From: Methanosarcina acetivorans C2A
GTDB taxonomy: Archaea > Halobacteriota > Methanosarcinia > Methanosarcinales > Methanosarcinaceae
Length of the DNA stretch: 64,000 nt
NCBI RefSeq assembly: GCF_000007345.1
Contig: NC_003552.1
Span: forward strand, 3,596,001 to 3,660,000
Direction of reading: 5' to 3'
In this document: positions 13,937 through 32,304 of the stretch, piece by piece
How positions within the stretch are numbered: position 1 is the stretch's first letter
How the letters are laid out: every line of letters starts with the position of its first letter
Made by a program: the position numbers and the translations under genes
The notes under the pieces: generated by a model
The model's input: the letters and a program-made list of their open reading frames with translations, nothing else
What the model was told of the DNA's origin: nothing
Database searches by the model: none

Positions 13937-14118
13937 TCAAATCACCTGCCTGTCTCATTACATGTATTTGTTTACATGTATTTGTTTAATACTTATATTC
14001 ATTAAATTCTGAACTATTCGTTAATTTCTGAACTATTCGTTAATTTCTAAACGATTCGTTAATTTCTAAACGTCTCATTTGTTTCTTTTTTTGCCTCTCC
14101 ATACCTGTTTTTCGGGTC

Positions 14119-28921: not shown

Positions 28922-29482
28922 TTACTGGTCTTTAATATATTCAAAGGTCCAGATCGGAGTCCCTTTTACTTCTCCCTTTTCAAGGTGTTCCAGCTCATGA
29001 GCTGCGCTATATGCCGGAGTGCCTTTCAGTAATATCTTTTTTTTGTTCAGTTCCCTGATTCGGATCTCCTTCAGGCCAGGATTTACCTCTGCAAGTAGCA
29101 TCCTTTTTGCCCGGAGGGTTATGCGGTAAGGGCGTTCGACCAGTTCTCTTTCTTTTCTTTCCCCGCATTTCTCCAGCCTGAAGATTACTCCTTCCCCTTT
29201 TATGATTTCGGGATTGATAAAAAGATATATCTTTTCCAGTGTATAGCCGGCTCTGTTTTCCTCATCATAATAGGTGATTACGTCCTTTACTGCAATGCTT
29301 TTTGCCTCTTCGGTGGCGTAACTCCACGAGCCTCCCGCTTTCAGTGAAAGTAGAAAAGGAAGAAACAGATCTCCCTGGATTCCAAAGCTGGAAATCAGAT
29401 TTTTTTCAAGGGCTGAAAATCTGAAGATTGCCCGAATTTCTTCAGCATCCATATTTGCATCTTCTCCATTATCCATATTCAC
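28922..29482 (-). CDS. Hypothetical protein
   Basis: About 186 residues, mixed alpha/beta, no signal peptide or membrane segment. A recurring RLEKCGERKERELVERPYRITLRAKRMLL segment is basic; the C-terminus reads AAHELEHLEKGEVKGTPIWTF. AGGAG is 5 nt before GTG at 29482, preferred to the codons ahead of it. Divergent from tetR with a 190-bp spacer, so tetR's operators might influence it too. No family recognised. Confidence 0.65.
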   Translation of the reverse strand: MNMDNGEDANMDAEEIRAIFRFSALEKNLISSFGIQGDLFLPFLLSLKAGGSWSYATEEAKSIAVKDVITYYDEENRAGYTLEKIYLFINPEIIKGEGVIFRLEKCGERKERELVERPYRITLRAKRMLLAEVNPGLKEIRIRELNKKKILLKGTPAYSAAHELEHLEKGEVKGTPIWTFEYIKDQ

Positions 29483-29587
29483 CATCACTCCTAAGAGGGT
29501 GAATCTCGAAGCCTATTTAATGTTTCTTTCTTGCTGAAAAATGTCGAAATTTTCTATTGAAGCTCTGCATTTTGACAGAATACAAAT

Positions 29588-29653
29588 GTTTATATCCAAT
29601 TCTAACTAAAAGTTATAATTGTAACTATTAGTTAGTAAAATAACTCCTAGTTA
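29588..29653 (+). promoter_or_regulatory. TATA box and three-site TetR operator array
   Basis: TTTATATC at 29589-29596 is a TATA element. It is followed by three copies of the palindrome TAACT-N3-AGTTA at 29603-29615, 29622-29634 and 29641-29653, spaced exactly 19 bp apart (about two helical turns, same face). The centres are AAA, ATT and CCT, while all 30 arm bases are perfect. Transcription should start about 29615-29620, inside the array, so a bound dimer would block initiation. Upstream of a tetR gene this is almost certainly its own operator. Confidence 0.9.
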
Positions 29654-29672
29654 GTTTTTCTCGGTGATAGAA

Positions 29673-30353
29673 GTGTCTATGAAAGAAATAAGGGAGCAGG
29701 AAAAAGAGCAGAGACGCAATTATATTCTTGACGCGGCGGAAAAATTGTTTTTCTCCAGGGGTTATGATGGCGTTTCAATGGACGATATCGCAAACGAGGT
29801 AGAATTCAACAAAGCGACACTTTATCTTTATTTTAAGAATAAAGAGTCGCTTTTTTTCACTGTTGTCCTGCGCGGAAAAAGAATCCTGAATTCCATGGTT
29901 GAAGAAGGTATTAAAAATTGCAAAACAAGCATCGAGGTCCTGGACACGATTGGAAAAGAGTACTTTTAGTTCATAGGTGAGTACCCCGATTATAGTCGGA
30001 TGTACTCATATTTCCATTCGGGAAGGTTCAACCTGGAAGATAGCGAAGATATGGATGAGGTTGCAAAGGAGATTCTCAAGCTGGACCATGATATAATCGC
30101 AATAACGCGCAACGCGATAAAGTCGGGAATCGATGAAGGCTTGATCCGGAGCGATGTCGACCCTGTCGAAATGACCGTTTTCTTGAACCTGATTGCCAAA
30201 GGTCTTACAGAAATGAGTCCCAGATTTAAGAAAGTACTGGAGAAACGGGGAATTACTCAACATCAGTTTTTCGCAGACGCCGCTGATTTCATGCACCACA
30301 TGCTCATGAACCCGGACAGGTGGATAAAAACTAAAAGTGATGTGTCTGATTGA
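29673..30353 (+). CDS. TetR-family regulator with in-frame UAG
   Basis: The N-terminus is a standard TetR helix-turn-helix: RRNYILDAAEKLFFSRGYDGVSMDDIANEVEFNKATLYLYFKNKE-type signature. At 29967-29969 the frame meets UAG right after KEYF. It continues without a break for 128 codons with typical ligand-domain sequence (FIGEYPDYSRMYSYF... to DRWIKTKSDVSD) and TGA at 30353. Family members usually have a charged residue at the UAG position. Options are pyrrolysine readthrough, a truncated 100-residue DNA-binding form, or recent inactivation. GTG at 29673 lies 5 nt after GGTGAT. The operator array is immediately upstream and two methyltransferases downstream. Confidence 0.85.
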
Positions 30354-30392: not shown

Positions 30393-31313
30393 ATGCAAGA
30401 ACCAACAAACTTCACAGCTTCAGGTGAAGTAACCATGAAAAGAAAAGGACCCAGCAATATGGCTGAGAGAATCGCGCTTATCAGAGCAGGTGAATCGAGA
30501 AAGCCTGAAGATGAACGCATCTGTTACGATCCCTATGCCATCCGCTTCATCAGCCCGGAAATACTGGAATTTGCGGCCCGTAATCCGGAAAAGTACAAAG
30601 CAGAAATTGAACGGCTGGAGCAGCTCTTTCCCGGATTGGCGAACTCGGCAGTTGCCAGGGTCAGGTATTTCGACGACGTTGTAAAAGCGTCTGCTGATGA
30701 TGGTCTCGAGCAGCTGGTAATCCTGGGTGCAGGTTATGACACCCGTGCCTATCGGATTGAGGGGCTGAAAAACATCAAAGTTTTCGAAGTGGACCACCCT
30801 GACACCCAGCGTGTGAAAATAGAGAAGGTCAGGGAGGTCTTCGGTTCTCTCCCAGGTCACGTCACATACGTTCCTCTCGATCTGGAGTTTGATAAACTCG
30901 GCCAGCAGCTAACAGAGTGCGGATATGACAGATCCCGAAAGACCCTTTTTGTCATGGAAGGGCTGGTAATGTACCTCCGGCCCGAGACAATGGATGAGAT
31001 ATTGTCTTTTATCGCGCATAATTCTGGTAAAGGAAGTGCCGTTATTTTCGACTACGGAGTTTTCAGATCTTCAGATGCCGGAGAGACTGCACCGGAAGCG
31101 GGCAAAAACATCCGAAATTTCACTAAAAAACGGGGGGAACCCCTTAAATTCCTAATCAGAGACGGAGAAGTCGAAACATTCCTTTCCGAAAGGGGATTTT
31201 CCAGAATCCAGAACATGACCAGCAAGGACTATAAAAAGGCATATTTTTGCGGAAAAAACGAGGGCCGGGTAGTTAGCAGCTTGATCTCGTTTGCCTATGC
31301 GCTGGTCAGGTAA
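30393..31313 (+). CDS. LCMT-type (TIGR00027-like) SAM methyltransferase, copy 1
   Basis: Typical leucine-carboxyl-methyltransferase-like protein: RVRYFDDVV, then motif I VILGAGYDTRAYRIEGL, acidic motif II VFEVDHPDTQRVK, and LFVMEGLVMYL. About 306 residues, normal for the family. Members O-methylate small-molecule or peptide carboxylates; the substrate here is unknown. It begins 40 bp after tetR's stop and so probably shares the operator-controlled transcript. It is about 60% similar by eye to the next gene, indicating tandem duplication. Confidence 0.88.
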   Translation: MQEPTNFTASGEVTMKRKGPSNMAERIALIRAGESRKPEDERICYDPYAIRFISPEILEFAARNPEKYKAEIERLEQLFPGLANSAVARVRYFDDVVKASADDGLEQLVILGAGYDTRAYRIEGLKNIKVFEVDHPDTQRVKIEKVREVFGSLPGHVTYVPLDLEFDKLGQQLTECGYDRSRKTLFVMEGLVMYLRPETMDEILSFIAHNSGKGSAVIFDYGVFRSSDAGETAPEAGKNIRNFTKKRGEPLKFLIRDGEVETFLSERGFSRIQNMTSKDYKKAYFCGKNEGRVVSSLISFAYALVR

Positions 31314-31383: not shown

Positions 31384-32304
31384 ATGCAAGAACCGGAAAT
31401 TTCCACGACTTCAAATGAAACGCACACAAAGAGAAAAGGACCCAGTAAAATGGCTGAGGGAATTACCCTCCACCGAGTCGATGAATCAAATAAGTCCGAA
31501 GAAGAACGGATATTTTATGATCCGTATGCCGTTCATTTTGTTAACCCTGCGATTCTGGAATATGCAGCAAAATATCCCGAACAGGCAAAAGCAGCAGTGG
31601 AGCAGATGGAGCGTCTTTTCCCGGGTCTCGGCAATTCTATTCGGGACAGAGTCAGATACTTTGACGATTTTGTCAGGGCAGCAGTCGATGAAGGGCTTCG
31701 TCAACTGGTCGTCCTTGGCGCGGGATATGATACCAGGGCGTACAGGATTGAAGGGCTGAAAGGGAAAGTCAGGGTTTTCGAAGTGGACCACCCGGATACT
31801 CAGAGTGTAAAAATCGAAAAGGTCGAAGAAATCTTTGGTTCCCTGCCGGACCACGTTATCTATGTGCCGGTTGATTTCGAAACCGACAACTTTGGCGAAA
31901 AGCTTGCTGCGCAGGGATACGACAGGTCGCTGAAAACTCTTTTCCTTCTGGAAGGGCTCATTATGTATATCTCTCCCGAGGCCATTGATGAGACGTTATC
32001 CTTTATCGCAAAAAATTCGGAGAAGGGCAGTGCTATCCTGTTTGATTACTACCCTGAGTCCGTTGTTGACGGGACATGCGAACTGGAAGCGGGGAAAAAC
32101 ATCCGGAATTATACGAAACAACAGGGAGAACCCCTTCAGTTCGGGATCAGGGAAGGAATGGTCGAGGCTTTTCTTGGTGAAAGGGGATTTTCCGGAGTTC
32201 AGAACGTGACTGCTGAGGAGTACAGGAAAATGTACTTCCATGGGATAAATAAAGATAGGGAAGTATGCGATCTTTTATTCTTTGCTCACGCAGTGATCGA
32301 ATAA
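31384..32304 (+). CDS. LCMT-type SAM methyltransferase, copy 2
   Basis: Paralogue of the preceding gene with the same layout: RVRYFDDFV, VVLGAGYDTRAYRIEGL, VFEVDHPDTQSVK, LFLLEGLIMYI. ATG at 31384 is 6 nt after GAGGTGA and its first residues (MQEPE) match copy 1 (MQEPT), so the longer frame from 31291 is rejected. A direct repeat AATCAAAAACAACC occurs twice in the 70-bp gap. Retention of motif I in both copies suggests both are active. Confidence 0.88.
   Translation: MQEPEISTTSNETHTKRKGPSKMAEGITLHRVDESNKSEEERIFYDPYAVHFVNPAILEYAAKYPEQAKAAVEQMERLFPGLGNSIRDRVRYFDDFVRAAVDEGLRQLVVLGAGYDTRAYRIEGLKGKVRVFEVDHPDTQSVKIEKVEEIFGSLPDHVIYVPVDFETDNFGEKLAAQGYDRSLKTLFLLEGLIMYISPEAIDETLSFIAKNSEKGSAILFDYYPESVVDGTCELEAGKNIRNYTKQQGEPLQFGIREGMVEAFLGERGFSGVQNVTAEEYRKMYFHGINKDREVCDLLFFAHAVIE

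Follow-up and report, generated by a model that had tools for sequence, protein, structure and literature searches.

A TetR-family gene interrupted by an in-frame TAG

The window, a stretch of 64,000 nucleotides from Methanosarcina acetivorans C2A (NC_003552.1, positions 3,596,001 to 3,660,000), carries on its plus strand a TetR-family gene that reads from a GTG at 29673 to a TGA at 30351-30353 and contains a lone in-frame TAG at 29967-29969. The TAG is preceded by 98 codons and followed by 127 sense codons and the TGA, in agreement with the preliminary description, which had reported a UAG splitting a TetR gene with the correct coordinates and codon count. The gene, its promoter region and the two genes behind it are listed below, where G004 denotes a second Methanosarcina genome whose gene has the same TAG, and G026 and G021 denote genomes with a sister pair of genes that have a sense codon instead.

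29589-29597, plus strand: TATA-box-like TTTATATCC, putatively assigned from sequence
29604-29615, plus strand: predicted operator site 1, AACTAAAAGTTA, a palindrome; 19-bp arrays also in G004, G026 and G021
29623-29634, plus strand: predicted operator site 2, AACTATTAGTTA, of the palindrome array
29642-29653, plus strand: predicted operator site 3, AACTCCTAGTTA, of the palindrome array
29663-29668, plus strand: ribosome-binding site GGTGAT, 4 nt 5′ of the GTG at 29673, conserved in G004 and G026
29673-30353, plus strand: TetR-family regulator gene read through the TAG, 226 residues (ORF, domain, alignment, structure model)
29724-29858, plus strand: TetR_N DNA-binding domain, residues 18-62 (PF00440, E 1.2e-17)
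29967-29969, plus strand: in-frame TAG, codon 99, within predicted helix 86-103 (sequence and structure model)
29970-30350, plus strand: part after the TAG, 127 sense codons, ligand and dimerisation helices (alignment, codon model, structure model)
30000-30002, plus strand: internal ATG, codon 110, possible restart site, common to G004 and missing from close sense relatives
30393-31313, plus strand: SAM-dependent methyltransferase 1 (TIGR00027, PF04072)
31384-32304, plus strand: SAM-dependent methyltransferase 2 (TIGR00027, PF04072), start set by similarity to methyltransferase 1, scan from 31372

A run of 127 open codons arises by chance with p ~5.5e-4 in random sequence of the same composition, and the three other long ORFs of the window that end in TAG stay open for just 19, 37 and 53 codons beyond their stops. 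The N-terminus contains the TetR_N helix-turn-helix (PF00440, 63.8 bits against a cut-off of 24), and the part after the TAG aligns over its full length with uninterrupted TetR relatives. An AlphaFold2 model of the read-through protein, in which Lys took the place of pyrrolysine at residue 99, gave a full TetR fold (pLDDT 89.7) with an all-helical C-terminal ligand and dimerisation domain, and its best structural matches were solved TetR-family regulators. The earlier statement that normal ligand-domain sequence lies downstream was thus borne out by both alignment and model. According to the model, a stop at residue 98 would keep the DNA-binding domain and drop every later helix. Residue 99 is probably solvent-exposed in helix 86-103, since this position is occupied by E, D, K or Q across relatives. 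Identity as a pyrrolysine-containing methylamine methyltransferase was ruled out, because domain and fold both make the protein a TetR regulator.

Conservation and origin of the TAG codon

Relatives were sought in the genus (31 genomes) and in the order (186 genomes, at E 1e-25 or better), and 23 of the 186 genomes had them. In both searches, TAG at codon 99 was confined to the window and G004, whose protein is 81% identical. The presence of TAG at the equivalent codon of this second species, combined with the full-length alignment, is a stronger sign than ORF length. Codon 99 is GAA, GAG or GAT (Glu or Asp) in the closest sense relatives and encodes Lys or Gln in those further removed; this is the outcome of the alignment of close homologues that the preliminary description had suggested. 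A scan of named genomes, with records of or near M. acetivorans omitted, returned one close sense relative, L045, on a contig identical to that of G026.

In a nucleotide tree built with codon 99 excluded, the two TAG genes were grouped with 100% support (96 and 98% for the two halves of the gene), so one origin of the TAG is the simplest reading. Judging from the codons of the sense relatives, the ancestral change was probably GAG to TAG. Independent gain in the two species was considered and judged unlikely, as the coding regions of the TAG genes group together. The region upstream of the gene (window 28973-29570) matches G021 (75-80%) and not G004, unlike the TetR gene and the methyltransferases, which match G004 better than G021; this mismatch of affinities suggests cassette exchange or rearrangement.

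Capacity for pyrrolysine decoding

The M. acetivorans genome has pylS, with its C-terminal domain at 186303-187019 (422.8 bits), and near it a tRNA-Pyl with anticodon CTA (L037 7852-7923), so that, of the pyl genes that the preliminary description had proposed to look for, pylS and the tRNA gene are in place. G004, the second TAG carrier, likewise has pylS. The earlier proposal of pyrrolysine readthrough is supported as far as decoding is concerned: pylS and tRNA-Pyl, a TAG in a second pylS-bearing species and the constraint downstream of it (see below) all fit this reading. With a reporter into which an amber codon was introduced, apparent UAG readthrough was 20-30% with no special context and no PYLIS, and PYLIS is not essential for UAG decoding (PMC2933860). 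Readthrough at that level without special context means that a dedicated sensor is not required. When the sequence just 3′ of the UAG was tested for a PYLIS-like stem-loop, the predicted folds differed between the two TAG genes, with fold z values of -1.6 and -3.3, compared with -1.0 to +0.9 in sense relatives (mononucleotide shuffles).

Predicted operator array and downstream methyltransferases

The interval from the TATA-like box to the start codon holds three AACT-NNNN-AGTTA-like palindromes, spaced exactly 19 bp apart; in G004, G026 and G021, two or three similar sites with 19-bp spacing lie ahead of the relatives' genes. No second copy of the 13-bp palindrome TAACTANTAGTTA (29622-29634) exists in the genome. 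The exact tandem pattern occurs once in the whole M. acetivorans genome, at the TetR gene's own promoter, and in G004 it occurs solely at the TetR gene; an array with one mismatch was located at 3455312, close to a TetR paralogue cluster. Based on this arrangement, we predict the palindrome array to be an autoregulatory operator. TetR-family regulators bind palindromes of this general kind, in many cases within their own promoters. A link to the methylamine regulon, sought through the operator pattern in the genomes of the window and G004, was not found. Elsewhere in the window, a second array, with sites at 14012, 14031 and 14050, likewise has a spacing of exactly 19 bp; its three 12-mers are nearly identical (AACTATTCGTTA twice and AACGATTCGTTA) and lie close to a rubredoxin-like sequence of the minus strand. 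G003:C1:3162794-3162900 contains tandem units of AACTTCCAGATA with a period of 19 bp.

The pair of methyltransferase genes downstream of the TetR gene is syntenic in G004, and a methyltransferase of the same TIGR00027/PF04072 type also lies downstream of the TetR paralogue at L038 7715-8362. Between the two TAG-bearing loci, dS was 0.39-0.42 for the TetR gene, 0.39 for methyltransferase 1 and 0.20 for methyltransferase 2; the equality of the first two values indicates that the gene diverged along with its operon.

The TAG could act as a switch on pyrrolysine status, in which the share of full-length repressor tracks the supply of Pyl-tRNA, so that the methyltransferases are repressed under abundant pyrrolysine and derepressed once pyrrolysine runs short. 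The retention of the TAG in two species at dS of about 0.4, though one mutation restores a sense codon, speaks for such a switch, as does the loss of the later helices that truncation would cause. However, the full operator is found solely at the gene's own promoter, the two SAM-dependent methyltransferases are unrelated to methylamine methyltransferases and neither they nor the TetR gene is a methylamine or pyl gene, operator and methyltransferases are arranged similarly in sense relatives, which lack the TAG, and autoregulation would blunt such a signal. We consider a switch of this kind unlikely, and it is quite unlikely that the frequency of reading UAG as pyrrolysine sets the active dose of the repressor, with availability of the 22nd amino acid acting as a signal to an unrelated methyltransferase operon. 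The coupling to pyrrolysine or methylamine status that had been suggested earlier was not supported, given a full operator restricted to the gene's own promoter, unrelated operon genes and the lack of a TAG in every other relative found.

Selective constraint after the TAG

Pairwise dN/dS of the two TAG genes was 0.16 before the TAG and 0.31 after it (bootstrap 0.16-0.59 for the latter). In a branch codon model written for this analysis, with the two TAG branches as foreground, omega before the TAG was 0.23 (p = 1.6e-4 against 1), with a background of 0.09, and omega after the TAG was 0.46 (p = 0.014 against 1), with a background of 0.20. Since omega exceeds its background in both halves, constraint appears to be relaxed about twofold throughout, with no additional loss past the TAG. 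The sense sister pair of G026 and G021 showed no comparable relaxation, and its dN over codons 100-187 was 0.085, compared with 0.161 in the TAG pair. A simple neutral simulation of the constraint after the TAG gave P = 0.024. Thus, the part after the TAG is under purifying selection, by a test of moderate strength.

Constraint on the TAG branches continues past codon 110 (omega 0.42, p = 0.01), as it would if UAG terminated translation and a restart at the ATG at 30000, 30 nt further on, yielded separate DNA-binding and ligand-binding polypeptides; the presence of this ATG in just the two TAG genes, among close relatives, points the same way. Against such a split gene, there is no conserved ribosome-binding site (an AGGTGA ends 19 nt upstream of the ATG in the window, and none is present in G004), and the break falls inside predicted helix 86-103, so that the two halves would need to assemble. 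A restart at this ATG therefore seems improbable. That UAG only terminates and the remainder is a recent pseudogene remnant would agree with the twofold relaxation on the TAG branches and with the interrupted TetR paralogues of M. acetivorans, but is very unlikely, because the TAG is older than the split from G004 and yet there is no second stop and no indel until the last codons, omega past the TAG is below 1, 69% of neutral simulations with an equal number of changes gain another stop, and a true pseudogene paralogue has a frameshift and mixed stops. This paralogue, G000:C1:3452060-3452690 (L038 12060-12696), is a real pseudogene, in which a frameshift is accompanied by both a TAG and a TGA, in contrast to the lone clean TAG of the gene studied here. 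Another shortened TetR gene, at G000:C1:422095-422319 (L125), seems to go on in another reading frame, which indicates a frameshift and not UAG.

Proposed explanation

We favor, with a probability of roughly two in three, the explanation that UAG is decoded as pyrrolysine and that readthrough is tolerated and possibly buffered. An acidic codon 99, probably GAG, would have mutated to TAG on one occasion, before the second Methanosarcina split off. In some translation events, tRNA-Pyl would decode the UAG as pyrrolysine to give a full-length, dimerising repressor; in others, termination would leave a fragment of 98 residues, which would retain the DNA-binding domain but not the subsequent helices and would probably be inactive. 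The full-length repressor is expected to bind the three palindromes in its own promoter, and by doing so would control itself and the two downstream SAM-dependent methyltransferases. Negative autoregulation of this kind may buffer incomplete readthrough and might thereby account for tolerance of the TAG. Two points count against this explanation: only two species carry the TAG, and constraint on their branches is relaxed about twofold on either side of it. Overall, the data suggest a tolerated substitution and not a dedicated pyrrolysine or methylamine switch.

Relation to known amber-containing genes

The candidate is not new, having been annotated as amber-containing in M. acetivorans and published. 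Fujita et al. 2007 (PMC1914089) list the TetR gene MA2902 of M. acetivorans as annotated amber-containing, with M. barkeri as the second species, and the TetR cluster appears again in a prediction paper from 2013 (PMC3639795); our literature search found no newer work on this gene beyond these two papers. MA2902 is very probably the gene studied here, since our searches found a single full-length TetR relative of the family with a lone TAG in the genome. The published pair agrees with ours in TetR family, in-frame TAG and two-species cluster. Those papers dealt with conservation and coding signal only; the present analysis contributes the operator, the operon, the ancestral codon, a tree and a structure model.

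The methylamine methyltransferases MtmB, MtbB and MttB likewise have an in-frame UAG in Methanosarcina and share tRNA-Pyl and PylS with the TetR gene. In those enzymes, however, pyrrolysine is considered a catalytic residue and is encoded by a conserved amber codon, in contrast to the E, D, K or Q of TetR relatives. Another parallel is the Methanosarcina tRNAHis guanylyltransferase, in which Heinemann et al. reportedly found pyrrolysine in 2009 that was dispensable there and was explained by neutral evolution. In both cases, pyrrolysine would be present in a protein that can do without it, although it was physically observed in the guanylyltransferase, whereas in the TetR protein, a repressor, we infer it.

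The gene is among the few credible candidates for pyrrolysine outside methylamine metabolism. As a repressor that looks dispensable, it would offer a clean test of how a stop codon with sense capacity spreads into ordinary genes, and, given the operator and operon described above, expression of the methyltransferases would provide a direct readout of any regulatory effect of amber decoding. Should the codon prove to be just tolerated, the gene would be a second example of the neutral entry of pyrrolysine.
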